Position numbers and translations under genes: made by a program. Below are positions 1 through 23,861 of a stretch of 26,877 bases of DNA, piece after piece (positions within the stretch are counted from its first letter, which is position 1; each line of letters begins with the position of its first letter). The stretch spans positions 1-26,877 of the forward strand of contig JAVCCG010000104.1 in assembly GCA_030765605.1 (NCBI GenBank), written 5' to 3'. This stretch comes from Candidatus Alcyoniella australis (GTDB lineage Bacteria; Lernaellota; Lernaellaia; JAVCCG01; Alcyoniellaceae). The notes under the pieces were generated by a model. The model was given only the letters and a program-made list of their open reading frames with translations, was not told where the DNA came from and did no database searches.

Positions 1-71
1 CCAAAACTCGCGTAGTACACTGGTCGTAATGCTACGAGCCACTCCGCGTCGAAAGATGGTGGAGGGAAGGT

Positions 72-93
72 AAAGATCGTAAAAACGATCTTT
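72..93. repeat. Perfect 9-bp hairpin, AAAA loop
   Basis: Arms AAAGATCGT (72-80) and ACGATCTTT (85-93) are exact reverse complements around a 4-nt AAAA loop. The stem ends in TTT on both strands, so it could act as a weak bidirectional terminator, but no clear U-tract follows on either side. Confidence 0.5.
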
Positions 94-225
94 GTGTGAA
101 GGCTCGCCGGGGCGGCTTGGAGCCGCATCAAAGCTCGCATATTTCCCTGGTCATTTTGCGTAGACCCATGCCGCGACGCGGAGAGCATCGTCGAGCCACA
201 TGCAGGTCACGTACGCGAGTTTTGC

Positions 226-242
226 CCCGGCTCGAAGCCGGG
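226..242. repeat. GC-rich 7-bp hairpin
   Basis: CCCGGCT (226-232), loop CGA, AGCCGGG (236-242) form a perfect 7-bp stem with a 3-nt loop. It directly abuts the left arm of the 26-bp inverted repeat at 242-267, so the two elements may belong to one structured unit. Confidence 0.5.
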
Positions 243-397
243 CGACAGCTCGCTCAGCGCGTTCTCAAAGAAGGATTGTTCATCGAGACAAGATGTTCCG
301 CACGATTGTCGGTCATAGATCGTGGCGTGGCACATGGCACCGCAAACTGCACGTATCAGCCGACCCAAGGATGAGAACGCGCTGAGCGAGCTGTCGC
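242..397. repeat. Perfect 26-bp inverted repeat separated by 104 bp
   Basis: Positions 242-267 and 372-397 are exact reverse complements over 26 bases. The match ends abruptly: 241/398 and 268/371 mismatch. The 104-bp spacer has no transposase-like frame. Such a long perfect pair is not expected by chance. It could be the ends of a small non-autonomous element, a long RNA or cruciform stem, or two inverted copies of a dispersed repeat. I did not see flanking target duplications. Confidence 0.7.
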
Positions 398-446
398 GCG
401 TAGTCAGGTGGTAAATCTCAAGACAATGCCCGGCTCGCGCCTACCA

Positions 447-468
447 AATAATGTTATTCAACATTATT
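447..468 (-). terminator. AT-rich hairpin 3' of plsB, possible weak terminator
   Basis: AATAATGTT (447-455) and AACATTATT (460-468) form a perfect 9-bp stem with a 4-nt loop, starting 16 bases past the plsB stop. Its position fits a transcription end for the leftward gene. The stem is AT-rich and is followed on the minus strand only by TTTGG, so as an intrinsic terminator it would be weak. Confidence 0.35.
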
Positions 469-483
469 ACCCCACCCCACCCT

Positions 484-3144
484 TTAGAAGCTGATGAAGT
501 TCGAGAGGCGTTCGGTGGTTTGGGCCAGGCGTTCGCGATCGGCCACGCGGTAGAGCACGACCTCTTTTTTAGTCCCCAGCTTTTTACGCAAGCGGCTGAC
601 GATCTGCTCGTCGACCAGCATCCGCAGGGCGTTGTCGAAAATGCTTTTGCTCGCCGCCTCGGTGCGACCGATCTCGCCCAGGCCGATCAGCCGTTCGCTC
701 TGTTTGAGCGCGTGACGCAGCAGGTCGCGGTCGCCCAGCTCGCGGTTCTTAAGCCTGCCCAGGGTGTGGCACAGCACGTAGTAACCCTCGCAAAAGCTCG
801 CGGTCTGTCCGGCCCAGAGCGTCAGGATGTTGTGCTGGTTGGGGTCGCTATCGACGTTCTCGCCATCGAGTTTGAGCAGGCCCGAGTCGAGCAGTTGCTC
901 GAGCTCGCGGCCGAAGTCAAAGCGCCGTCGTTGCTCGTCGGGCCGCGGCTGGTCGCCGAAGATGAACTCGTAGCGCAGCAGGCGCATCAGCCAGGAGAAG
1001 TCGTCGAACAGCTCCGGGATCGGCGAGCGCCGGCCGTGTTTGTCGCGCGCCAGGGCGGCCAGCGAAAGCAGCGAGAGGAACTGCACGTGGTGCATCAGCA
1101 TGTTGCGGTACAGCGAGAGGGCCAGGCGCTTGTCCGGCTCGACGTAGCAGATTGCGGCCCGCGGGTCGCTCGGGTCGTCCTCGAGCTTGAGCAGCGATTG
1201 CCCCTGAAGCAGCGCCAGTACTTTCTCGACCCAGTCCGGGTCGCGCAGCACGGTCTCCTGCAGCTTGGCTCCGCGACGGTGCAGCAGCCGCACCAGCACG
1301 CCGCAGCGCGCGATCAGTTCGCTACGCAGCACTCCGCGGCGCGGGTCGGCGATCAAGGCGGCGGCGACGATCGATGCGGGCGTGGTCAGGCTGACGCGGT
1401 TGATCTCGTAGCTCACGCGGTAGGCGATGCGCTGGGCCAGCGCCATGGTCTGCTCGCGCTGGGTCGGCACGTTTTCGAGCCCTTCCTCGCGTAGGTACTG
1501 GCCCACGGTGAACGGCTCGGCAAAGGTCAGGTGCACCGAGCCCTGGGGCTGGAGGATCATTTTGCGATGGCGGAAGACCGTGCCCAGGTTTTCGCCCTCG
1601 TTCCCCTTGCCCGCCAGCTCCTTGAGGTAGAAGCGCTCCTCAAAGATCCGCTCGTAGTCGATGGAGATCGGCGCGATCAGCAGGTCGCGCACTCCCGAGC
1701 GGCGGAAGGCATCGAGCACGATCGAAAGGAAGCCCAGCTTGGGCACGATCAACTTGCCCACGCGGCTGCGGCCGCCCTCGATAAAAAACTCGATGTTGTG
1801 CCCGTGGCGGATCAGCGTTTCAACGTACTTGGCGAAGGTCGCGGCGTAGACCGGCTGCCCCTTGAAACTGCGGCGCAGGAAGAACGCGCCGCCCCTGCGA
1901 AAGATCGCCGACAGCGGCCAGAAGTTGAGGTTGATCCCGGCGGCGATGTGCGGCGGGATCATGTGCTGGCGGTAGAGCACGTAGGAGACCAGCAGGTAGT
2001 CGATGTGGCTCTTGTGGCACGGGATGTAGATCACCGGCATATCGCGCGCCATCTTGCGCACCTTGCGCAGGTTGCCCACGCGGACCTCGATCGAGGTGTA
2101 CATCCGGCCAAGTAGTCGGGTGAGGATCCGGATGAGCACGCGAACCATGCTGTCCGAGTAGTCGCTGGCGATCTCGTCGGCGTAGCGCCGGGGCAGGTGA
2201 TAGTAGTCCTTGAGAAAGTCCTTGCCATCGGCCTCGGCCAGGGCCTTGACCTGCGAAAGCAGGTCGCGGTCGTGGGCCACGATGTCGACGATCTCCTCGC
2301 GCGACTTCAGCCGCGGCCCCTGGATTACGCGGCGCTCGCGGTTAAGCAGGTCGAGCACCTCGCGCCGCAGCTCGTAGGCCAGCTCCTCGTGACGGTTGAA
2401 GATGTCGGGTACTTGCGGCGCGGTGCGCTGCACGTATTCGCGCAGGTCGATCGGCGGCATCAGACGACACAGGGCGAAGCCGGGTCTGGTCAGCAGGTTG
2501 TACAGCGTACGCAGTGTCCCCGGGTCGTCCGGCGGGCCGAACAGCAGGTCGACCAGCGAGTTGGTCTCTTGCAGCGGAGTCTTGGCGTGCAGCAGCAGCA
2601 GCGGGATCACGATGATCCGACGTTGCGAGTCGGCCAGCATTTTTATCAACTCGGCCAGCGGATCGGGTCGGTCGTAGAAGAAGCGGCGCGGCAGCCCCTC
2701 GTACTGTTTGAGGAAGATCATCTGCGCCTCACCGCGCTCGATCGAGGCGTTGACGAACCCGTCGCGGTAGGGGTTGGGATAGCGCCGCCGCTGCAACGCG
2801 CTACGCGCGATTCCGCCGATGCGGCGCAGGGTGCGCTTGACGCTGAGAAACGGATAGAGGCTGCGATAGTGGCTGAAACGCGGCGGGTCCAGACCGAGCT
2901 GCGCGGCGCGCTGGGCCATGAACAGAAACGGATACCAGCCCGGCGAGCCCACGGCGTAAAAGATCGTACTGTCCGGCGGCGGGGTCCAGTCGCGGCCCAG
3001 GGCCGAACTGTCGACCTGTACCCGCGAGAACAGGTAATTGAGAAAACGACCCAAAGGGCCGCCGGGGACCTGCGGCATGTACGCGCTGTAGAGGTCGTAG
3101 TCGCGGGCGTCGCCGCCCTGCGAAGGCTGCCGGTCGTTGCTCAT
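484..3144 (-). CDS. plsB: Glycerol-3-phosphate 1-O-acyltransferase PlsB
   Basis: Catalyses the first acylation of sn-glycerol 3-phosphate from acyl-CoA or acyl-ACP, giving lysophosphatidic acid at the inner membrane. All four acyltransferase blocks of the family are visible. Block I is HKSHID with the catalytic H-x4-D pair at about H377/D382; block II is GAFFLRRSF near 420; block III is FFIEGGRSR near 453-461; block IV is LIAPISIDYERI near 489. At 886 residues it is somewhat longer than the roughly 807-residue E. coli enzyme, consistent with the large PlsB rather than the small PlsC or PlsY type. The frame can also begin at a TTG at 3150; I prefer the ATG at 3144. No strong ribosome site is visible. 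It lies 64 nt downstream of the S24 repressor on the same strand with no obvious terminator between, so co-transcription is possible. Confidence 0.95.
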   Translation of the reverse strand: MSNDRQPSQGGDARDYDLYSAYMPQVPGGPLGRFLNYLFSRVQVDSSALGRDWTPPPDSTIFYAVGSPGWYPFLFMAQRAAQLGLDPPRFSHYRSLYPFLSVKRTLRRIGGIARSALQRRRYPNPYRDGFVNASIERGEAQMIFLKQYEGLPRRFFYDRPDPLAELIKMLADSQRRIIVIPLLLLHAKTPLQETNSLVDLLFGPPDDPGTLRTLYNLLTRPGFALCRLMPPIDLREYVQRTAPQVPDIFNRHEELAYELRREVLDLLNRERRVIQGPRLKSREEIVDIVAHDRDLLSQVKALAEADGKDFLKDYYHLPRRYADEIASDYSDSMVRVLIRILTRLLGRMYTSIEVRVGNLRKVRKMARDMPVIYIPCHKSHIDYLLVSYVLYRQHMIPPHIAAGINLNFWPLSAIFRRGGAFFLRRSFKGQPVYAATFAKYVETLIRHGHNIEFFIEGGRSRVGKLIVPKLGFLSIVLDAFRRSGVRDLLIAPISIDYERIFEERFYLKELAGKGNEGENLGTVFRHRKMILQPQGSVHLTFAEPFTVGQYLREEGLENVPTQREQTMALAQRIAYRVSYEINRVSLTTPASIVAAALIADPRRGVLRSELIARCGVLVRLLHRRGAKLQETVLRDPDWVEKVLALLQGQSLLKLEDDPSDPRAAICYVEPDKRLALSLYRNMLMHHVQFLSLLSLAALARDKHGRRSPIPELFDDFSWLMRLLRYEFIFGDQPRPDEQRRRFDFGRELEQLLDSGLLKLDGENVDSDPNQHNILTLWAGQTASFCEGYYVLCHTLGRLKNRELGDRDLLRHALKQSERLIGLGEIGRTEAASKSIFDNALRMLVDEQIVSRLRKKLGTKKEVVLYRVADRERLAQTTERLSNFISF

Positions 3145-3208
3145 CGGCAATGATTATCGCACAGGCGCCGATCGTTGACGAAGCTTCGGGCGCGCCGTGC
3201 TGATCGGG

Positions 3209-3880
3209 CTAATGAAAGACCACGCTGACCACCCGGTGGATCCACTCGATCTGCGAGTTGTTGACGAATACCGGATTGTACTCGGGATTGGTCGAGTGCA
3301 GCAGCAGGCCGTCGTCCACCCGGCGCAGTTCTTTGACCATCACCTCGCCGTCCTTGAGCTTGACCACCACCAGCGAGCGCGAGGGGATGTCGTCGAGCTG
3401 CACCTCGGGAGTGCAGATAATGCGGTCGCCGGGATTAAGTCGCGGCACCATCGATTCGCCATCGACCACCAGCGCGTAGGCGTTGGGGTCCTTGATCTCG
3501 GCCGGACGCGAGAGGAACTCGATCCCTTGGCCCACGGGGTAGGGGTCTTCCCAGAAGCCGGACTGGCCGGCTTGAGCCCAGGCGATTACCGGGATCATCG
3601 GCAGCTGCTCGTTGTAGACCACATCGCCGTAGATCAGCTCGGCCACCTCGGGGTTGCGGTCGAACTCGGCCATGCGCAGCAAATGGGAGGGGTCCAGACC
3701 CAGGGATTTGGCGATGGCCACGAGCTTCTCCTTTTTGGGGATCAGCCCGCGCAGCTCGATCTCGGAGACGTACTGCTTGGTGATGCCGCACTGCTGAGCC
3801 ACCTGTTCGATGGTCATCCGAGCCAGCTTCCGCTTTTTCCGCAGATATGATCCTAGCTTTGGCATGACGCAATCATCCAT
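3209..3880 (-). CDS. XRE-family repressor with LexA/CI-like S24 self-cleaving domain
   Basis: This is a 223-residue two-domain repressor. Residues about 9-65 form an XRE/Cro-type helix-turn-helix (IEQVAQQCGITKQYVSEIE). Residues about 95-223 form an S24 peptidase domain with an Ala-Gly cleavage site in WAQAG (A104-G105), a nucleophile Ser143 in DGESMVP, and a general-base Lys183 in VMVKEL. All catalytic parts of RecA-stimulated autocleavage are present, so induction by DNA damage is plausible but inferred. The domain order matches phage CI and its chromosomal relatives; canonical LexA has a winged helix instead. ATG at 3880 sits about 18 nt from a predicted start site; ATG at 3865 is an alternative. 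It is divergent from the ncRNA/orphan-gene promoter and upstream of plsB. No other phage gene is nearby. Confidence 0.9.
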   Translation of the reverse strand: MDDCVMPKLGSYLRKKRKLARMTIEQVAQQCGITKQYVSEIELRGLIPKKEKLVAIAKSLGLDPSHLLRMAEFDRNPEVAELIYGDVVYNEQLPMIPVIAWAQAGQSGFWEDPYPVGQGIEFLSRPAEIKDPNAYALVVDGESMVPRLNPGDRIICTPEVQLDDIPSRSLVVVKLKDGEVMVKELRRVDDGLLLHSTNPEYNPVFVNNSQIEWIHRVVSVVFH

Positions 3881-3904
3881 ATTTATTGGACAGATGTAAA
3901 GAAA

Positions 3905-3933
3905 ATAATAGGACTAGAGGCAAATAGTGTCAT
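3905..3933 (-). promoter_or_regulatory. Sigma70-type promoter of the S24 repressor
   Basis: On the minus strand, ATGACA (3933-3928; 5 of 6 to TTGACA) is followed after exactly 17 bp by TATTAT (3910-3905; 5 of 6 to TATAAT). The expected start site near 3898 gives an untranslated leader of about 18 nt before the ATG at 3880. Confidence 0.6.
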
Positions 3934-3940
3934 GTAAATC

Positions 3941-3969
3941 TTGACCGCCAGCGTTAAGTCAATTATAAT
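3941..3969 (+). promoter_or_regulatory. Strong sigma70-type promoter toward 4235
   Basis: TTGACC (3941-3946; 5 of 6) and a perfect TATAAT (3964-3969) are separated by the optimal 17 bp. The predicted start site is near 3975-3977. This is the best consensus promoter in the window. It faces right, diverging from the repressor promoter. Confidence 0.7.
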
Positions 3970-3977
3970 ATGACTTA
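3955..3977. promoter_or_regulatory. Palindromic operator candidate over the -10 box
   Basis: TAAGTCA (3955-3961) and TGACTTA (3971-3977) form a perfect 7-9-7 inverted repeat centred at 3966, the middle of the TATAAT box. That is the position and size expected of a dimeric helix-turn-helix repressor site that blocks RNA polymerase. The adjacent divergent S24 repressor is the obvious candidate binder. Binding is inferred from position only. Confidence 0.55.
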
Positions 3978-4173
3978 TGGTGCAGGGATTAAATCACCGT
4001 TACGGGGTCTATCGATTCGGATGGATAATGCCGGGTGTAAAATGTCTGCAATATAACAATCAGTTAACAGCAGGTGCTCGGCTGTGCGTGAGCTCAGCTT
4101 CACAGCCATGTGTCAAATCGCATTGGATGTTTGGGGTTGCGGCCACGGCAGTGCGGGCTCTGCTGTTTTTTTT
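3976..4173 (+). ncRNA. Predicted ~200-nt terminated transcript (sRNA or attenuated leader)
   Basis: The strong promoter at 3941-3969 starts a transcript near 3976, and a U-tract terminator at 4145-4173 would end it after about 198 nt. Inside is a second hairpin, GGCTGTG (4080-4086) pairing with CACAGCC (4101-4107). No ribosome site and no plausible protein are seen within it. I recognise no known RNA family. Two readings fit: a stand-alone small RNA repressed by the S24 protein, or a 5' leader whose terminator controls read-through into the gene at 4235. Confidence 0.45.
4145..4173 (+). terminator. Intrinsic terminator with eight-T tract
   Basis: ACGGCAG (4145-4151) pairs with CTGCTGT (4160-4166), giving a 7-bp stem with one G-U pair and an 8-nt loop. 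A run of eight T (4166-4173) follows, its first base shared with the closing A-U pair. It lies 62 nt before the next start codon, so it either ends a short RNA or acts as an attenuator. Confidence 0.6.
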
Positions 4174-4234
4174 ACCCGTTTTGTCTGTTAATAATGGACG
4201 TAACGTAAATATCTGAAAACAGGGGGAGTATGTA

Positions 4235-4588
4235 ATGGAGCTGTCCATCGACCAGTTGATCGGGTTGGCTGAGAGCGGGCACGCCGAGCAGGCGGCTCAG
4301 TGGATCGCGGACCAGGGATTAGATCGGATCTACGATCCGGCGAGCTGCGCCAAGCAACGGCTGACCTTCGAGCGGGCGTTGATCGAGCTGCTGTCCGCGG
4401 GAGTGGGGAACGATCGGATGCGCGGTATCGAGCTGTTCGAGCGCCGGGTGCGGCGCATCTGGGAGCAATACCTCGAGCAGTACGCCCATCAGCACGAACA
4501 CGAGCTGACGCAGATCGCCCTGGATGCGCGCGACGAGGCGTTGGCCGCGCACCTGAGTGACGGCCGATCGCCCGAGGCCCGGCTGTGA
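4235..4588 (+). CDS. Hypothetical protein, helical, 117 aa
   Basis: I do not recognise this family. The protein is charged, soluble and probably all-helical, with no signal peptide or membrane segment. The C-terminal half is strongly amphipathic, with many Arg/Glu and a His-rich patch near residues 84-88. The start is well supported: a strong ribosome site AGGGGGAG (4221-4228) lies 6 nt before ATG 4235. An upstream ATG at 4230 is immediately followed by TAA, making a start-stop pair that overlaps the true ATG. The gene is the first one after the S24-controlled promoter and attenuator-like terminator, and its stop overlaps the next gene's GTG start (GTGA), so the two are probably translationally coupled. 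Confidence 0.75.
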   Translation: MELSIDQLIGLAESGHAEQAAQWIADQGLDRIYDPASCAKQRLTFERALIELLSAGVGNDRMRGIELFERRVRRIWEQYLEQYAHQHEHELTQIALDARDEALAAHLSDGRSPEARL

Positions 4589-5031
4589 GCCCCGCGCTGA
4601 ACGACCTGGACCGGCAGTTCTTCCGCGCGCAGAGCAAGGTCTGCTCCGAGCGCCGGATCGCGGCACGGCCGCTCACGGTGGTGCTCAGCCAGTGGGCCTG
4701 GTATTGCCGGGGCAACCTGGGAAACGCGGTGAGCGTGATGCCCGAATCGGGCCTGCGCTGTGTGGCGCGCAAGCCCTTGGGCTGGATGACCAAGGTCGAG
4801 ATCATCGCTGACATCGACCGGCTGATCCACAAAGCACTGTCCGATGAATCGGCGGTGGAGGAGTTGCAGGCTTACGCGGCCCTGGGCTCGATGGCCAAGG
4901 CCGCCTCGTTTCTGCGCAAATACCGCGACCGTCGCATGGATCAAAACGCGTTTAACCGCCGCGTGCGCGGCAACCAGGCCAAGGCCGCGGCAGCGTTGCG
5001 CGTCGCGGGCTACGTCAGCTATCGCGGCTGA
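4585..5031 (+). CDS. Hypothetical basic protein, 148 aa
   Basis: Unrecognised. It begins with GTG at 4585, overlapping the previous stop by 4 bp. It has no signal peptide or membrane helix. The C-terminal 45 residues are very basic (FLRKYRDRRMDQNAFNRRVRGNQAKAAAALR), suggesting nucleic-acid contact, and a MTKVEIIADIDRLIHKAL helix occupies the middle. The N-terminal third contains two cysteines and tryptophans (WAWYCRG) that could form a small core. Its end overlaps the convergent galactosidase gene by 13 bp (5019-5031), leaving no room for a terminator. Together with the preceding gene it forms an orphan pair under the S24 switch; a DNA- or RNA-binding role is only a guess. Confidence 0.7.
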   Translation: MSPALNDLDRQFFRAQSKVCSERRIAARPLTVVLSQWAWYCRGNLGNAVSVMPESGLRCVARKPLGWMTKVEIIADIDRLIHKALSDESAVEELQAYAALGSMAKAASFLRKYRDRRMDQNAFNRRVRGNQAKAAAALRVAGYVSYRG

Positions 5032-7208
5032 ACGCGAAAGACCTTAATTGCCGGCCCTTGGATTTCAAAGTTCAGCGGGTCGGACCCGAGCTCGAGCGAC
5101 TCGTCGCTGAACAGCTCGGTCAGCACCAGGCGCGAGTGCTCAGCACTCAGATCGCGCAGCCGCAGTGTGACGTTGTTCAGGCCCTTGCGCCAACCGACGA
5201 CCGCCAGGTAGCCGCTGCCCTCGCTGAGTTCACGCCACCAGAGTTTAGGCGGGCGCGAGTTGAAGAACAGCACGTCCTCGGCCGGATTTTTAATCAGCAC
5301 CGGCGTGTACTGATCGAACAGGTCCAGCGGTTCGAATCGTCCCCGGGCGTCGGCCAGCTCGATCAGCTGCGGCGAGAGCAGCAAAAGTTTGCGCTGGGCG
5401 TCGAGCTGGTTGAGGTCGTCGCCCAGCAGCAGGTGGTCGCCGCCCAAAGCGTTGATCACGGCCGAGAGTCGGGCCTCGTCATCGCCCAGCGGCTCGCGCA
5501 CCACCAGGTTGTCCGGGTCGATCAGGAACCAGCGGCTGGTGAAAAAGCGCGCCGAGTTCATCCGCGCCAGGTTGGCGTTGATCACGTGAAGCGGCCAGGG
5601 AAACAGCGGGCTGACCACGTCGGTGCCGGTGCGGATCGCGTGCGCCTGGCCCACGCTGGGCAAGATCGGCTCGCCGCAGGCCAGGATGAACACCTCCTGG
5701 CCCGCCGCATCGCGGATCAGGTTCATCGCCCGCTGGTAAGCCTGCATCGAGGTGACCGACTCGCGGCGCACGCCCTCGATCGATCCGGCGAAGAGGAAGT
5801 CGAGCTTGAGGTAGGTGAAGCCGCGGTGAACCATGGTCGAGATCTGGACCCGCAGCCAGTCGGCCGCGTCCGGGTGGGTCACGTCGAGGTAGGCGTAGGA
5901 CGCTGCGCCGAGGTTGTCGAACAGCGGGTGCTCGCCCGCACTGTCGCGTACGAACCAGTCGGGGTGCGCCTGGTAGACGCCGGACTCGACGTCGACCAGC
6001 AGCGGCGCCATCCAGATCCCGGGTCGCAGGCCGTAGGCCGAGATCGCGTCGGCCAGCCGGTCCAGGCCCGAGGGGAACTTGTCGTTGGCTTTCCAATCGC
6101 CCCAGCGCGGCATGTAGCCGTCGTCGAGCTGGACCAGGGTGTACCCGGCGTCGGCAAATTCGGAGTCGATTGTCGGCAGTTGGTCGAGCACATTTTGCTC
6201 GGTGACATCGGCGAAGAACTCGTACCAGCTGCCCCAGCCGCGCGGCCGCTGGCCGCTGGTCAGCGGCGGTACGACTTGGGCCACGCGCTGGGCGTAGTCG
6301 TACAGCGCGTCTACGCCGTTTTGCGCCACAGTGAAGAACAGCGGGTCGAGGATCAGCTCGCTGCCCGCGGCGAGATCGATGGCGTCGCCCGGCGTGCCCT
6401 GCGCAACGATCAGGTTGCCGCGGCCGTCGGCGCGCAGTGCCTCGGAGGCGATATAGGTCTTCCAGGTGTGGGCCGAGAGCGCGCCCGCGGCCAATGTCTC
6501 GCCGCCGTTGCCCGCCTCGTCGCGCTGCACGGACCAGGCGCCGACCCACCACGAGACTCCGCGACAATCATCGCCCGGATGATAGTTGTTGGCGCAGGCC
6601 TTGACCCGGCCGTCAGCGCGCGGCACCGCGCCGTCTCCGACCTCGATGCGCTCGATCTGCGTCGGGCTCCAGGCGTCGTGGCCGTTGTGCAGCATCTGGT
6701 ATCCGCCGTTAAAGCCCACGGCGCTTACCCCGCCAACCCCCACACCCCGCGAGGCGTTGAACGCGATTTCATACCCCTCGATTTGCGCGGTGGAGTGCGC
6801 GCTGAGCAGCGCGGTGAACGTAACCCCCAACGGCTCGTCGCTTGGCGAGATCTCCAGCTCCAAATCCGGGGCAAAATTGTGTCCGCTGAACGACCAGCGC
6901 GTGCTGCTGCTGGTGTAGTCGGCCCGGGCATGCGGATAGTCGCCCAGCGCGACCCACTCCAGGCGGTCGTCGCGCCGCAGGGCCAGCCGCGCCTCGCCGC
7001 CGAGCAGCTCGAACGAGCACGGCGGCGCGGAGATCAGTTTGAACGTGCGCGATTGTTCGTCGATCAGCGGGATCAGCGAGCAGGCCGGGTACTCCACCGT
7101 TCCATCGTCCTGCGTCCCGTCCGTGGAGTCCTCGACGTTCTCCTCGCAGCCCGGCGCGATTAGCGCCAGAACAAAAACCAGCGTCAGCAAGGTCAACAAG
7201 CGGGCCAT
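5019..7208 (-). CDS. GH36-type alpha-galactosidase-like lipoprotein
   Basis: A clan GH-D glycoside hydrolase, family 36-like, predicted to remove terminal alpha-galactosyl or related residues by a retaining mechanism. In order: a lipoprotein signal peptide with lipobox LIAPGC (Cys21), an N-terminal beta-sandwich (about 40-315), a catalytic barrel with LVQLDDGY near 358-365, nucleophile Asp470 in YLKLDF, the ACGEP loop near 510, acid/base Asp530 in RTGTD, and a C-terminal beta domain. ATG 7208 is chosen over the longer frame to 7283 because it gives the signal peptide and has AGGAGT at good spacing. At 729 residues it has the normal size for the larger GH36 members. It stands alone, without transporter or sugar regulator, so the substrate is unknown; anchoring in the envelope suggests outer-surface or periplasmic glycans. 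Confidence 0.85.
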   Translation of the reverse strand: MARLLTLLTLVFVLALIAPGCEENVEDSTDGTQDDGTVEYPACSLIPLIDEQSRTFKLISAPPCSFELLGGEARLALRRDDRLEWVALGDYPHARADYTSSSTRWSFSGHNFAPDLELEISPSDEPLGVTFTALLSAHSTAQIEGYEIAFNASRGVGVGGVSAVGFNGGYQMLHNGHDAWSPTQIERIEVGDGAVPRADGRVKACANNYHPGDDCRGVSWWVGAWSVQRDEAGNGGETLAAGALSAHTWKTYIASEALRADGRGNLIVAQGTPGDAIDLAAGSELILDPLFFTVAQNGVDALYDYAQRVAQVVPPLTSGQRPRGWGSWYEFFADVTEQNVLDQLPTIDSEFADAGYTLVQLDDGYMPRWGDWKANDKFPSGLDRLADAISAYGLRPGIWMAPLLVDVESGVYQAHPDWFVRDSAGEHPLFDNLGAASYAYLDVTHPDAADWLRVQISTMVHRGFTYLKLDFLFAGSIEGVRRESVTSMQAYQRAMNLIRDAAGQEVFILACGEPILPSVGQAHAIRTGTDVVSPLFPWPLHVINANLARMNSARFFTSRWFLIDPDNLVVREPLGDDEARLSAVINALGGDHLLLGDDLNQLDAQRKLLLLSPQLIELADARGRFEPLDLFDQYTPVLIKNPAEDVLFFNSRPPKLWWRELSEGSGYLAVVGWRKGLNNVTLRLRDLSAEHSRLVLTELFSDESLELGSDPLNFEIQGPAIKVFRVQPR

Positions 7209-7253
7209 CCGTATTACTCCTGTTGGGCGTACGCCGAGGTGCGGGCGGGAAGC

Positions 7254-7283
7254 ACTATGCGCGAAAAGCGGCGCAGGTTTCAA
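7254..7283 (-). promoter_or_regulatory. Possible promoter of the GH36 gene
   Basis: On the minus strand, TTGAAA (7283-7278) and CATAGT (7259-7254) are 18 bp apart, with a predicted start near 7246 and a leader of about 38 nt. The match is moderate (5 of 6 and 4 of 6). Confidence 0.4.
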
Positions 7284-7338
7284 ACCGCAAGGCGACGATT
7301 GACGACACTAGGTTCACCAGTGCGATAAACTATGCGCA

Positions 7339-8724
7339 ATGAAGGATCGTCGTTGGGACGCGGCGCTGGCGCTCTGCGCCGGGGCGTTGCTCGTGCTCTA
7401 CGCCATGGGTGCGGTCGGGCTGTGCGGCACCGGGCTATGGGGCCTGACGCTGGGCGGGCGTCTGCCGATGGCCGCACTGATTCCATTGCTGATTATTGCC
7501 GCTGCCTGCTGTGTGCCGCCGGTGGGCCATCAGCTGCTGCGCGTTCTGCGTCGGGCCGATGCCTGGCTCGGGGCGCGGCGTCTGCGCGGGCTGCTGGCGC
7601 TCGAGCTGGTCTGCCTGCTGCTGCTGTTGCTGCTGCACTCACACAAAGCGTACTACGGCCTGCCCCTGGCGTTGAACGACCTTGACCGCGTCTACCCGAC
7701 CAACCCGCTGAGCAACCTGTTTCTGCGGCTGGTCAGCGCGCTGTTCTCCGGCCTGGCCCTGGCCGCGCCGCTTGCGCATGAGCTCGATCCGCTGATCGCC
7801 CTGGCGAGTATCTGCGCCGGAGCGCTGCTGATTCCGCTGCTGTGGTCTTTGGCCGGACGCATCGCGCCCCAGGGCGAGCGGCTGCCCGCGTTCGCGCTGC
7901 TGCTGTTCGCGCCGAGTCTGGCGCTGTTCGCCGGACATCGCGAGATCTATTTCGCGCCGGTGCTGGCCATGGCGCTGTTCTGCCTGGCGCTGATTCACGA
8001 CCTGCGAGAGGACGCGTTGCCCTGGCGTAGCGGTTCGGCCGGGTTCGCTGCCGTGGGCGCGCACATGCTCAACGCGTCGGTGCTGCCGGTGCTGCTGCTG
8101 ATCGGCCTGACCTGCGGACGCCGTTTTTCGAGGTCCAAACGCGCGGCCGCGCTGCTGGGCCCGTTCGTCGCGGGCGCGGCGCTGATCGCGGCCTGGGCTG
8201 CCTGGGATCTGCACGCCCGCGGCGCGAGCATTGGTCCCTACGAGCTGCTGGGCTCGTTCGCTCATTTGCAGTCCGAGTCGTACGGCCTGTTCTGGATCGC
8301 GTGGCTCGATCATCAAGCCCCGGCCGGGATGTTCTCGCAGGAGCACCTGGAGCAGTTTTACAACCAGCTGCTGCTGCACTGCCCGCTGTTAATCGTGCTG
8401 ATCGCGGCGCTGCCCAACGCCATACGTAAAGCCCTACGCGGCGATCGAGCATTGGGCGCGCTGCTGTTACTGTGGCTCGGGGCGCTGGTTGTGGCCGTGA
8501 TCGACCGTCCGATCGGCGGGCATTTGAGCCAATGGGCGCACAGCTCCAATCTGGCCCTGGTGACGACCGTCGTCTTTGTCTACGTCTTCTACCGCGTGCT
8601 CGACGGCGCGCGACGCGACGCGGCGGCCGCCGCGCTGATCGGGCTGAGCGCCTTTCACACGCTGAGCCTGATGCTGGTCAATCGACTTAACCTCGGCCCG
8701 TACCTCGGATTCGGCGGACAATAG
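7339..8724 (+). CDS. Polytopic membrane protein, GT-C-like
   Basis: A 461-residue integral membrane protein with about ten hydrophobic segments covering nearly the whole chain and short polar loops. The central part, with GHREIYFAPVLAMALF near 195-210, resembles the aromatic loop-helix seen in ArnT/PMT-like GT-C membrane glycosyltransferases, but the usual N-terminal acidic catalytic motif is not obvious, so the family call is tentative. A run of CTG codons at 7610-7640 encodes a poly-leucine helix. ATG 7339 lacks a clear ribosome site; a TTGACG at 7299-7304 could be a -35 box, which would make the leader very short. The stop is followed after 3 nt by the cardiolipin-synthase-like gene, so they form an operon. 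Confidence 0.6.
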   Translation: MKDRRWDAALALCAGALLVLYAMGAVGLCGTGLWGLTLGGRLPMAALIPLLIIAAACCVPPVGHQLLRVLRRADAWLGARRLRGLLALELVCLLLLLLLHSHKAYYGLPLALNDLDRVYPTNPLSNLFLRLVSALFSGLALAAPLAHELDPLIALASICAGALLIPLLWSLAGRIAPQGERLPAFALLLFAPSLALFAGHREIYFAPVLAMALFCLALIHDLREDALPWRSGSAGFAAVGAHMLNASVLPVLLLIGLTCGRRFSRSKRAAALLGPFVAGAALIAAWAAWDLHARGASIGPYELLGSFAHLQSESYGLFWIAWLDHQAPAGMFSQEHLEQFYNQLLLHCPLLIVLIAALPNAIRKALRGDRALGALLLLWLGALVVAVIDRPIGGHLSQWAHSSNLALVTTVVFVYVFYRVLDGARRDAAAAALIGLSAFHTLSLMLVNRLNLGPYLGFGGQ

Positions 8725-8727
8725 CCG

Positions 8728-9834
8728 ATGGCGATCACCCTTGGCGCGGACAGGATCGAGCTGTTTCGCAACGGTCGCGAGCTTTACCCGCGGATGCTCG
8801 GCGACATCGAACGCGCCCAGCGCGCCATCCACTGGGAGATGTACATCTTTGCCGACGACCCGGTGGGCGAGCTGTTCCGCGACGCCCTTGCCAGGCGCGC
8901 CGCGGCCGGGGTTGAGGTGCTGCTGCTGGTCGACGCACTGGGCTCGTTGGGCACGCCCTCGACGTTTTTCGACAGCGTGCGCCGCGCCGGCGGCACGGTG
9001 CGCTTTTTCAATCCGCTGGCGCTTTGGCGTCACGGCGGCGGACGCTATCGTGCGCTGCCGTGGGATCGACGCGACCACCGCAAGCTGCTGGTGATCGACC
9101 ACGAGCTGGCCTACGTCGGTGGGATCAACCTGGGCAATCAGTTCCTGCACTGGGAGGACCTACAACTGCGCGTGGAGGGACCGGGCGCCGCGCGGCTGGC
9201 CGAGAGCTTCCAGAGCGTCTGGCGCGCTGACCCGCGTATCCTATTCCGCAGGATGCTCGAACCGTACCGGTCCACGTCCAGGCTGATCGACGTGCTCGAC
9301 GGCTTTCCCGCTCCGGACTACAGCCCGATTAAGAAAGCCTACGTCTCGATCATCAAGCGCGCGCGCAGCACGTTGTGGCTCAGCCAGTCCTACTTCTTTC
9401 CCAGCCGCAAGCTGCGCCGGGAACTGGCCAAGGCCGTGGCGCGCGGGGTCGACGTCAGGCTGATGCTGCCGGCGCATTCGGACATCTACGTTGTCGAGAT
9501 GGCCAGCCGACGGCTCTACGCCAAGCTGCTCAAGCAGGGGGTGCGGATCTACCTTTACGAGCCGACGATGCTCCACACCAAGTGGGCCTGCGTCGATGGT
9601 CGGCAGTCGATCGTCGGCTCGGCCAACCTCGATCCGGTGAGCCTGTTTCATACCCTGGAGATCGATTTGCTGATCCGTTCCGAGGAACTTGCTGCGCAAC
9701 TCGAGGAGCTGTTCAAGCACAACATCGAACGCTGCCGGGCCCTTGATTTCACCTCCTGGTCAAGGCGACCGTGGCTGGATCGGCTGCGCGAACGGCTGTG
9801 GTACCGGCTGCGGCGTTTCTTTTATTACTCGTGA
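8728..9834 (+). CDS. cls: Phospholipase D family protein, cardiolipin synthase-like
   Basis: A PLD-superfamily enzyme that most likely joins phosphatidyl groups to make cardiolipin or a related phospholipid at the membrane. Both HKD motifs are intact: H117-R-K119-(x4)-D124 in DHRKLLVID, followed by GGINLG, and H283-T-K285-(x4)-D290 in MLHTKWACVD, followed by GSANLD. The two-motif layout without N-terminal membrane helices resembles ClsB-type synthases more than ClsA, and the length (368 residues) fits. The C-terminus is very basic and aromatic (residues about 347-368), suitable for membrane surface binding. The ATG lies 3 nt after the previous stop, without its own clear ribosome site, so coupling is likely. 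A general PLD phosphodiesterase remains possible. Confidence 0.85.
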   Translation: MAITLGADRIELFRNGRELYPRMLGDIERAQRAIHWEMYIFADDPVGELFRDALARRAAAGVEVLLLVDALGSLGTPSTFFDSVRRAGGTVRFFNPLALWRHGGGRYRALPWDRRDHRKLLVIDHELAYVGGINLGNQFLHWEDLQLRVEGPGAARLAESFQSVWRADPRILFRRMLEPYRSTSRLIDVLDGFPAPDYSPIKKAYVSIIKRARSTLWLSQSYFFPSRKLRRELAKAVARGVDVRLMLPAHSDIYVVEMASRRLYAKLLKQGVRIYLYEPTMLHTKWACVDGRQSIVGSANLDPVSLFHTLEIDLLIRSEELAAQLEELFKHNIERCRALDFTSWSRRPWLDRLRERLWYRLRRFFYYS

Positions 9835-15577: not shown

Positions 15578-16534
15578 TCATTTGATCTTGCCCTGACGCT
15601 TGAGCCGCAGCAACAGCGGCCAGCCCAAGAGCAACGGATGGCGGCGCTGCCGTGCTGTGAGCTCGAGCTTCTCGCCCTGGGTGCGTTCGAACTTGGCGAG
15701 GATGATCTCCAGCCAGTTATCGACCTGCATCATCTGTTTGGGCCAGCGCGCCACGGCCCGGCGCTTGGAGCGCTTGAGCGCGCGCTCAAGCTGCTTGCGC
15801 CCGGCTAGCCGGGCGCTGACCGTGCGTCGTTGATAATAGACAACGCGACCGTCCTGTTGTTCCAGGCCCAGCTCGCGGTGGTGGGCGCGGCGAAAGCGCT
15901 CGAGCAGCCGGGCGTGAACATCGGAGTAGAAACCGCTCTGGGCCTCATACAGCTGCTCGATCTTGTCGTCGGTCTCGGGCCGCACCTCGCCCAGATAGCT
16001 GAGCTTGAGCAGCGCCTTGCTGAAGTCCTGGATCTCGAAGCGGTTGCCGCACAGCACCAGCGCCTGGGCCAGCAGCGAATCGCTGGCGTCGAGCCAGATC
16101 TGGGTCAGCTCGTCAACCGCGTCCTGGTTCGCGGCCCAGGCCACGCAGAAGCGCTTACTGAAGCGGCCGCGGTGGTAGAAGTCCTTGGCTCCGGGCCGCA
16201 CCTGCTCGCGCAGCTGCTCGAGGCTGATCGAGCACGCTTTGCACGCCATCCCCGCGCCCAGGTCCTCGTAATAGATATTGGGCGGCAGCAGGCCGTTGAG
16301 CAGCGCCTGGCCGCGCGAACCCGCGTGCAGCTTACGGTAGCTGTCGCTGATCAGGTAGAAATCGTAGAAGCTCGTCGGCGTGTCGGTGACCGGGTCGAGT
16401 TTGCTGCCGTAGAACACGATGGCCAGCAGTCCGGTTTTAAAGCGTGCGCGCAGCCGCTCGACGAACGGTTGCAGCCGCGGATCGTCGCAGGGGTAGAGCG
16501 CGTCTCTGACCGTTTGGAATAGCGAGTCGTCCAT
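15578..16534 (-). CDS. TAM41-like nucleotidyltransferase, putative CDP-diacylglycerol synthase
   Basis: A 318-residue soluble protein with a nucleotidyltransferase-like start: FYGSKLDP (Gly43-Ser44) followed by YDFYLISD (Asp58), then PPNIYYED near 84-91, CKACSISLEQL near 98-108 and FYHRGRFSKRF near 119-129. The order and spacing recall mitochondrial TAM41, the non-membrane phosphatidate cytidylyltransferase, whose GS-loop, Asp-containing strand, YGVIS-like strand and AGRLxKP-like motif occur in the same order. I infer CTP-dependent CDP-diacylglycerol synthesis at the membrane surface, supported loosely by plsB and a cardiolipin-synthase-like gene nearby. The C-terminus is very basic (residues about 240-318). 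It heads the leftward six-gene run. It could instead be another nucleotidyltransferase of unknown substrate. Confidence 0.5.
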   Translation of the reverse strand: MDDSLFQTVRDALYPCDDPRLQPFVERLRARFKTGLLAIVFYGSKLDPVTDTPTSFYDFYLISDSYRKLHAGSRGQALLNGLLPPNIYYEDLGAGMACKACSISLEQLREQVRPGAKDFYHRGRFSKRFCVAWAANQDAVDELTQIWLDASDSLLAQALVLCGNRFEIQDFSKALLKLSYLGEVRPETDDKIEQLYEAQSGFYSDVHARLLERFRRAHHRELGLEQQDGRVVYYQRRTVSARLAGRKQLERALKRSKRRAVARWPKQMMQVDNWLEIILAKFERTQGEKLELTARQRRHPLLLGWPLLLRLKRQGKIK

Positions 16535-22084: not shown

Positions 22085-23245
22085 TCAGGCGTCTTTTTCC
22101 CGGCGCATGTTCTCAATGAAACGCGCGAACAGGTAGGACGGGTCGTGGGGGCCGGGGGAGGCCTCGGGGTGGTATTGCACTGAGAACACCGGACGTCCGG
22201 TGAGCTGCATGCCCTCGACCGTCTGGTCGTTGAGGTTGACGTGGGTCAGCTCGGCCAGCCCCTGCAAGCTCTCCACGTCCACGGCGAACCCGTGATTCTG
22301 GGCGGTGATCTCGACCTTATTAGTGGTCAGGTCCATTACCGGGTGGTTGCCGCCGTGATGGCCGAACTTGAGCTTGTAGGTCTTGCCGCCCAAAGCCAGC
22401 CCGAGAATCTGGTGGCCCAGGCAGATGCCGAACAGCGGGATGCCGGCCTCGATAAAACGTCGCACGGCCTGGGCCGCATAAGGCACGGCCGACGGGTCGC
22501 CCGGGCCGTTGGAGAGGAAAATTCCGTCGGGCTCCATGGCCAGGACGCGCTCGGCGTCAAAAGCGGCGGGCACCACGGTCAGCTCGCAGCCCGCGGCGGT
22601 CAACAGGCGCAGAATGTTGAACTTGATGCCGAAATCGTAGGCCACGACCTTATAGGTACGTTTGAACTGCGGTTCGTTGGCCACGCCGCGTGGGTAATTC
22701 TCGTAGCTGCGGGCGATGCTCCAGTCGCCCTGGTTCCACATGTAGGGCGAGCGGCAGGTGACTCCCTGGACCAGATCGACGCCCTCGATGGTCGGCGCGT
22801 CGTGGGCCTTTTTCACCAGGCTCTGCGCGTCAGGGTCGATGCTCGAGACCACGCCGGTCTGGGCGCCGCAATCGCGGATGTGCCTGGTCAGCGCTCGGGT
22901 GTCGATGCCCTCGATGCCCACGATTCCGTGCTGGACTAGGTAGTCTCCCAGGCTGCCGCGGTTGCGCCAACTGGAGGGATGGGTCGAGGCCTCGCGCACG
23001 ATCAGCGCCTGCACCTGGGGCGTGGTTGATTCGACGTCCTCGGAGTTGATCCCGTAATTGCCGATCAAGGGGTAGGTCATGCAGACCATCTGTCCGGCGT
23101 AGCTGGGGTCGGTGAGGATCTCTTGGTAGCCGGTCATGCTGGTGTTGAACACCACCTCGCCCACGGCCTCGCCCCGGGCGCCGAAGGCTGTGCCCTGGAA
23201 GATCCGGCCGTCGGCCAGAGCCAGAATTGCCTTGCCATTACCCAT
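22085..23245 (-). CDS. carA: Carbamoyl-phosphate synthase small subunit CarA
   Basis: The glutaminase subunit that feeds ammonia to CarB for carbamoyl phosphate, used in pyrimidine and arginine synthesis. The N-terminal domain carries [21 protein letters not shown], and the class I glutamine amidotransferase domain holds the triad Cys275 (GICLGHQ), His359 and Glu361 ([10 protein letters not shown]). All catalytic residues are intact and the 386-residue length is normal. The frame runs on to 23308, but ATG 23245 is chosen because the family starts at this point and the extension has no similarity to it. carB is not in the window; a thioredoxin gene follows instead. Confidence 0.96.
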
Positions 23246-23279
23246 TTGACCGTGATCATCCACTGTTGATGTTCGGCGC

Positions 23280-23308
23280 AACTTATGCGAGCCCTCGGGC
23301 GCTGTCAA
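23280..23308 (-). promoter_or_regulatory. Promoter candidate of carA
   Basis: A perfect TTGACA on the minus strand (23308-23303) is followed after 17 bp by TAAGTT (23285-23280), a poor -10 box. The predicted start near 23273 lies about 28 nt before the ATG at 23245, which also argues against starts further upstream. Confidence 0.4.
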
Positions 23309-23336
23309 GACGGCTCGACAAATCGGGAAAGCCCCG

Positions 23337-23356
23337 GACGACCCTTGCGGGCCGTC
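23337..23356 (-). repeat. GNRA-capped 8-bp hairpin between hsp20 and carA
   Basis: Read on the minus strand, positions 23356-23337 fold into an 8-bp stem (one G-U pair) closed by a GCAA tetraloop. It lies after the hsp20 stop and before the carA promoter. No U-tract follows, so it is not a standard terminator; it may protect or end the hsp20 message. Confidence 0.4.
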
Positions 23357-23429
23357 GCGGGGTAGGGGGCTTATCTAGGCGGATTGGCTGGGGACCCTTG
23401 ATAAAATCCCCGGTTGGTTCGAACATTCC

Positions 23430-23861
23430 TTAGCTGACTTTGACCTCGATCGATCGCGGCTTGGCTTTTTCGCTTATCGGCAGGGTCAAGCTCAGCAAAC
23501 CGTTGTGAACCTCGGCCGTGATCTTATCGCGGTCGACGCTCTGGGGGAGCACGAACCGGCGCTCGAATTTACCGTAGGAACGTTCCGAGCAGTAACAGTT
23601 CTGTTCGTTGCTCTGCGACTCGCCGGTTTTCTCGCCGCTGATGGTCAGGATGTCGTTCTCAACGCTGATCTCGATTTCCTCTTTGGTCAGGCCGGGCACC
23701 TCGGATGTGAGCACGATCTCGTGCTCGCTGTGATGGATGTCGGTGGGCAGCAAGGAGCTGCCGTTGCTCAGAGGTCCGGAGAGGAACGGATCGCCAAGCA
23801 GGCTCGAAAGAGTCCTGGCGGGCCAGTCCAGGTCGTTATTATTCCATCTGATGATTGACAT
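23430..23861 (-). CDS. hsp20: Small heat-shock protein, Hsp20/alpha-crystallin family
   Basis: An ATP-independent holdase that binds unfolding proteins as oligomers. The alpha-crystallin domain spans about 40-135 with the hallmarks VPGLTKEEIEI, the SERSYGKFERRF segment and AEVHNGLLSLTLP (the A-x-x-x-N-G-x-L motif). The C-terminal IEV is the I-x-I/V tail used in oligomer assembly. Two cysteines in NCYCSE (near 88-90) are unusual for bacterial Hsp20 and could be redox-sensitive. ATG 23861 is preferred to GTG 23870 because AGGAGG lies 8 nt upstream. A sigma70-type promoter is present; I saw no CIRCE element and no clear RpoH-type site. Confidence 0.93.
   Translation of the reverse strand: MSIIRWNNNDLDWPARTLSSLLGDPFLSGPLSNGSSLLPTDIHHSEHEIVLTSEVPGLTKEEIEISVENDILTISGEKTGESQSNEQNCYCSERSYGKFERRFVLPQSVDRDKITAEVHNGLLSLTLPISEKAKPRSIEVKVS

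Follow-up and report, generated by a model that had tools for sequence, protein, structure and literature searches.

The window analyzed here, a stretch of 26,877 nt from the genome of Candidatus Alcyoniella australis, carries a strong sigma-70-type promoter between a phage-type repressor gene and two small orphan genes; the promoter is overlapped by operator-like palindromes and followed by a sequence of about 200 nt with an unusually stable predicted fold, which runs into an intrinsic terminator and contains no credible coding frame. The RNA predicted to arise from it (positions 3976-4173, plus strand) would very probably be controlled by the adjacent repressor and may well be a stand-alone, structured small non-coding RNA, a reading on which confidence is evenly balanced.

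Promoter and terminator of the predicted RNA

The promoter given in the preliminary description, TTGACC-N17-TATAAT, is present at 3941-3969 (plus strand): It agrees with the sigma-70 consensus in 11 of 12 positions and is the sole match of this quality on both strands of the window (0.017 expected according to a Markov model of the window). The hairpin with eight T described for the downstream end is likewise present: A 7-bp hairpin (4145-4166) immediately precedes a T8 tract (4166-4173, plus strand), the predicted 3' end of the RNA, and no other run of eight T exists on either strand of the window (0.13 expected). Hfq-type sRNAs studied in E. coli require a terminator U tail of at least seven residues (PMC6582626), a length that the T8 tract attains. 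The number of terminators found over positions 1-9000 is in itself not above chance (8 versus 6.6 expected); the distinctive part of this terminator is the T8 tract together with the long rod that leads into it.

Predicted fold of the RNA

For the sequence 3976-4173, a folding energy of -77.9 kcal/mol is predicted (z -4.8; none of 200 shuffled sequences folded as well), and it ranks first (z -4.9) among the 358 segments of 200 nt scanned on both strands of the window. According to the prediction, 70 base pairs are formed over the 198 nt, with a mean pairing probability of 0.94 for the paired bases, and are arranged in two plus-strand domains: a 5' hairpin domain (3976-4055) and a 3' rod of 102 nt (4066-4167; -51.6 kcal/mol alone), separated by a linker of ten nucleotides (4056-4065) that is single-stranded as judged from the pairing probabilities. 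The base of the rod, AACAGCAG paired with CTGCTGTT, leads straight into the T8 tract, and the rod itself is therefore regarded as the terminator stem. Two short hairpins had been proposed for this region, i.e. the one at 4145-4166 and a second 7-bp hairpin (GGCTGTG/CACAGCC) at 4080-4107; both exist within the rod but do not constitute its preferred fold, as they cost 12-20 kcal/mol compared with the rod (4060-4173 folds at -52.1 kcal/mol, versus -31.5 kcal/mol with both short hairpins forced).

In a nascent-chain folding series, the rod closed only once the last bases of the stem had been made. No competing antiterminator fold near the energy of the rod was found, i.e. the mutually exclusive folds of an attenuator leader are not seen, and keeping the 3' strand of the terminator (4160-4167) unpaired costs 13.5 kcal/mol. 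Of the initial proposal of a small RNA or an attenuator, a structured and terminated non-coding unit is retained at the sequence level, whereas attenuation by a fold switch is weakened by this result. With its own promoter, its own terminator, its structure and its lack of coding, the unit has the predicted make-up of an intrinsically terminated sRNA. An antisense action on the ORF1 or repressor mRNA was rejected, since the duplex energies lay within about 1.4 standard deviations of those for shuffled targets.

The runner-up in the fold scan was the segment 15751-15950 (z -4.8 on the minus and -3.9 on the plus strand), which is located inside a minus-strand frame (15578-16534). A further fold signal at 23251-23450 (minus strand, z -4.1) covers the start and upstream region of a carA-like gene (22085-23308, minus strand) and is possibly a leader, or else it terminates the small heat-shock-like gene located upstream.

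Coding potential of the transcript and of the downstream frames

A leaderless gene had been considered as a further possibility, and an open frame of 79 codons (3977-4216, plus strand) does begin with an ATG at 3977, about one base from the predicted transcription start; its coding function was rejected. The GC content by codon position is 0.53/0.44/0.45 in this frame versus approximately 0.65/0.42/0.86 in real genes of this DNA, the third-position value of 0.45 contrasting with 0.84-0.88 in the repressor gene, ORF1, ORF2 and their neighbors, and the comparison with protein families yielded nothing above cut-off.

Because of their third-position GC, ORF1 and ORF2 are probably real genes. ORF1 (4235-4588, plus strand; 117 aa) is predicted to be mostly helical and starts 61 nt past the T run, in agreement with the gap of about 62 nt reported before; the very strong ribosome site noted at this coding start corresponds to the Shine-Dalgarno sequence AGGGGGAG (4221-4228, plus strand). 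No consensus promoter was seen in the 61-nt gap. The start of ORF2 (4585-5031, plus strand; 148 aa) overlaps the stop of ORF1.

For ORF1, no convincing relatives were found in the class genomes, wider genomes, viral contigs or plasmids; a weak match in one of 386 genomes (G107, E 1.9e-4) was attributed to chance, as it spans a stop and fits no listed frame. ORF2 had no relatives in the 386 genomes, viral contigs, genome contigs or phages. Neither protein matched PHROGs at E <= 0.1 or any PADLOC entry (the repressor gave generic helix-turn-helix matches only), and a defence system was rejected on the PADLOC result. By eye, ORF2 is reminiscent of small late regulators of phages in its central beta hairpin and its C-terminal helices, a likeness that no search backs: The suspected relation to Q-type antiterminators yielded no convincing match in Pfam, NCBIfam, PHROGs or PDB chains, and a fold search against viral folds returned nothing at E <= 0.001 with a poor model (pLDDT 49).

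The adjacent repressor and its putative operators

The gene at 3209-3880 (minus strand) encodes a protein with an XRE helix-turn-helix (PF01381, E 1e-10) and a full-length Peptidase_S24 domain (PF00717, E 1e-19). Among PHROGs it matches the transcriptional repressor family phrog_4 (E 4e-39), and it shares 31.5% identity with phage repressors over 97% of the protein; its relatives are distant ones only, mostly matched across the S24 domain. The order of Ala104-Gly105, Ser143 and Lys183 along the protein is that of self-cleaving repressors; from what is known of LexA and CI, we take them to be the cleavage site and the Ser/Lys dyad. The combination of XRE domain, complete S24 domain, Ala-Gly site and dyad order points to a CI-like S24 repressor. 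An assignment to LexA was rejected (30.6 bits to TIGR00498 versus an NCBIfam equivalog cut-off of 110.95); the true LexA of the genome is encoded elsewhere (contig C28, L006 1483-2100; 141.8 bits to TIGR00498), adjoining a DNA polymerase IV-like gene. On the same strand, plsB follows the repressor gene at a distance of about 59 bp, and the two may be co-transcribed. A promoter-like site at 3153-3181 (minus strand) has a -10 element that ends just a few bases short of the start codons of plsB, which could therefore be leaderless.

A candidate promoter of the repressor gene (ATGACA-N17-TATTAT, 10 of 12 consensus positions; 3905-3933, minus strand) is arranged back to back with that of the RNA. 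Two operator-like palindromes are located in this region: O1 (GTCATGTAAATCTTGAC, 3929-3945) overlaps the -35 elements of both divergent promoters, and O2 (AAGTCA-N9-TGACTT, 3956-3976; GTCA-N9-TGAC core at 3958-3974) covers the -10 element of the RNA promoter. The motif GTCA-N9-TGAC occurs twice in the window compared with 0.29 expected, both times on the RNA promoter (-35 and -10). Genome-wide, its frequency is about equal to that of the reversed control (approximately 40 versus 38 sites), and among the approximately 40 sites listed O1 and O2 are the sole close pair. When the whole window was ranked by a profile built from O1 and O2, the third-best site, O3 (GTCTGTTAATAATGGAC, 4183-4199), was found between the terminator and ORF1, and a weak site, O0 (3875-3891), over the repressor start was among the next best. 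The frequency of O3 in shuffled sequences was 0.017 for the gap between terminator and ORF1 and 0.039 for the region from O2 to ORF1, which is of modest significance alone; O0 (0.076) is not significant alone. Repeated operator-like sites that overlap a divergent promoter, here O1 at the -35 and O2 at the -10 element, are consistent with a CI-type control region. The proposed repressor control of the RNA thereby gains support from the paired palindromes, at which the repressor is predicted to bind.

Distribution and genomic setting

Homologues of the RNA were detected neither by BLAST in 60 genomes nor by a covariance model, built from the single sequence, in seven class genomes; in 290 wider genomes the model retrieved the RNA itself alone. 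Phages contained no homologue, and no search run assigned the RNA to a known family: There was no Rfam match at gathering score (one spurious lncRNA, E 4.2), no tRNA or tmRNA was found, 6S RNA was rejected as RF00013 matches nothing in the genome, and a repeat element or MITE was rejected owing to the single copy in the genome. In consequence, a function of the RNA draws no support from conservation or covariation.

Protein, DNA and covariance searches revealed no ORF1, ORF2 or RNA in the six other class genomes; among the seven class members, the cassette is thus private to Candidatus Alcyoniella australis. In the plsB neighborhoods of five class members (two of these stretches are short, owing to contig ends), neither the repressor nor ORF1, ORF2 or the RNA had a relative. 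The flanks of the cassette are of housekeeping type (plsB-like and alpha-galactosidase-like genes), no phage structural genes were found nearby and no Q-like gene was recognized. A prophage was rejected on the basis of these flanks, the lack of PHROG, viral or phage relatives of ORF1 and ORF2 and the absence of direct repeats around the cassette.

Proposed mode of action and alternative explanations

According to the proposed model, the S24 repressor would bind O1 and O2 and keep the strong promoter off. Judged from the build of the protein, DNA damage would remove it through RecA-stimulated self-cleavage; the freed promoter could then be transcribed by RNA polymerase into an RNA of approximately 195 nt, which would fold into the 5' hairpin domain and the rod and end at the T8 tract. 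The RNA might act upon other RNAs or partner with a protein, and transcription of the ORF1-ORF2 operon might depend on a weak or separate start near O3 or on leaky termination. A stand-alone RNA, with ORF1-ORF2 as neighbors under shared regulation, is the best-supported reading of the sequence, given two structured domains that fill the predicted RNA, a strong promoter and a terminator of its own, and the candidate operator O3 ahead of ORF1.

The terminated 5' leader of the ORF1-ORF2 operon, i.e. a second control layer, is the main rival, and a serious one because the gap before ORF1 is devoid of a consensus promoter, which favors readthrough from upstream; it is entertained tentatively. The common strand, the distance of 61 nt, the strong Shine-Dalgarno sequence and the tight overlap of both frames fit such an operon. 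Phage late promoters, as in lambda, carry a terminator about 200 nt past the promoter that Q relieves; StxS is a further case (PMC7873438). The terminator of such a leader would be relieved by an antiterminator, an RNA-binding protein or a modification of RNA polymerase and not through a mere switch of folds. The missing antiterminator fold and the cost of unpairing 4160-4167 speak against a leader; ORF2 also matches none of the antiterminator families by sequence (its predicted model being too poor for a fold search), and O3 suggests a repressor contact of the downstream genes' own.

Two other explanations appear considerably less probable. The RNA could be a by-product without function, its strong repressed promoter firing into a terminator that merely insulates ORF1-ORF2; the missing homologues and the restriction to one of seven class genomes would agree with this, but the structure goes far beyond the needs of termination and includes a 5' domain unrelated to it, so that this explanation is considered unlikely. 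Least probable is a transcript that codes for a peptide, either the 79-codon frame or a hydrophobic tail of 29 residues from an ATG at 4127, resembling a type I toxin. The ATG next to the predicted start and the hydrophobic C-terminal stretch MFGVAATAVRALLFFLPVLSV speak in its favor; apart from the low third-position GC and the lack of family matches, however, the hydrophobic run is in part the T8 tract read as Phe-Phe-Leu, the ATG at 4127 has no Shine-Dalgarno sequence, and an RNA that ends at the terminator would not reach the stop codon.

Going beyond the stand-alone RNA, it is a speculative and rather improbable extension that the locus forms a cassette peculiar to this lineage and inducible by DNA damage, its CI-type repressor governing the two-domain RNA together with two orphan proteins that act jointly with this RNA, e.g. 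as an effector or defence unit of RNA and protein without a described counterpart.

Comparison with known systems

RNA units of the IstR/TisB type are SOS-controlled. They share with the present locus a DNA-damage-type repressor over a structured RNA, as far as the control predicted here is concerned, and differ from it in that the repressor here is not LexA and neither a credible toxin peptide nor an antisense partner was found. The lambda '6S' RNA is a short transcript of the lambdoid late promoter. StxS derives from a terminated prophage late-promoter transcript, the short RNA itself being functional as an sRNA (PMC7873438). Both resemble the present case as short transcripts of a phage-type region that stop at an intrinsic terminator before a gene block; in contrast, their late promoter is active in the lysogen, is not repressor-bound and has its terminator relieved by Q, whereas here two operator-like sites cover the promoter, and neither a Q-like gene nor neighboring phage structural genes were recognized.

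In E. coli, DicA represses an operon that yields the sRNA DicF (PMC10448788). This dicBF system of the cryptic prophage Qin has in common with the present cassette an XRE repressor, operators on a strong promoter in a prophage-type control region, and a non-coding RNA and small proteins arising from one control region (for dicBF at the transcript level; PMC10448788). DicF, however, is a 53-nt RNA cut by RNases from a polycistronic mRNA, in contrast to the promoter-proximal start and own terminator predicted here, and DicA has no Ala-Gly cleavage site, unlike the S24-type repressor of this locus; there is no sequence relation between the two systems.

The novelty claimed in the preliminary description does not hold as a principle, as DicA/DicF (PMC10448788) and StxS (PMC7873438) precede it: Repressor-controlled sRNAs and terminated leaders are both known, and the value of the locus lies in the new RNA and the two orphan genes. 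If the RNA is made, it would represent a clean case of a phage-type repressor over a structured non-coding RNA, in the setting of a bacterial group of which few genomes have been sampled (the class counts seven) and with two unclassified small proteins alongside.
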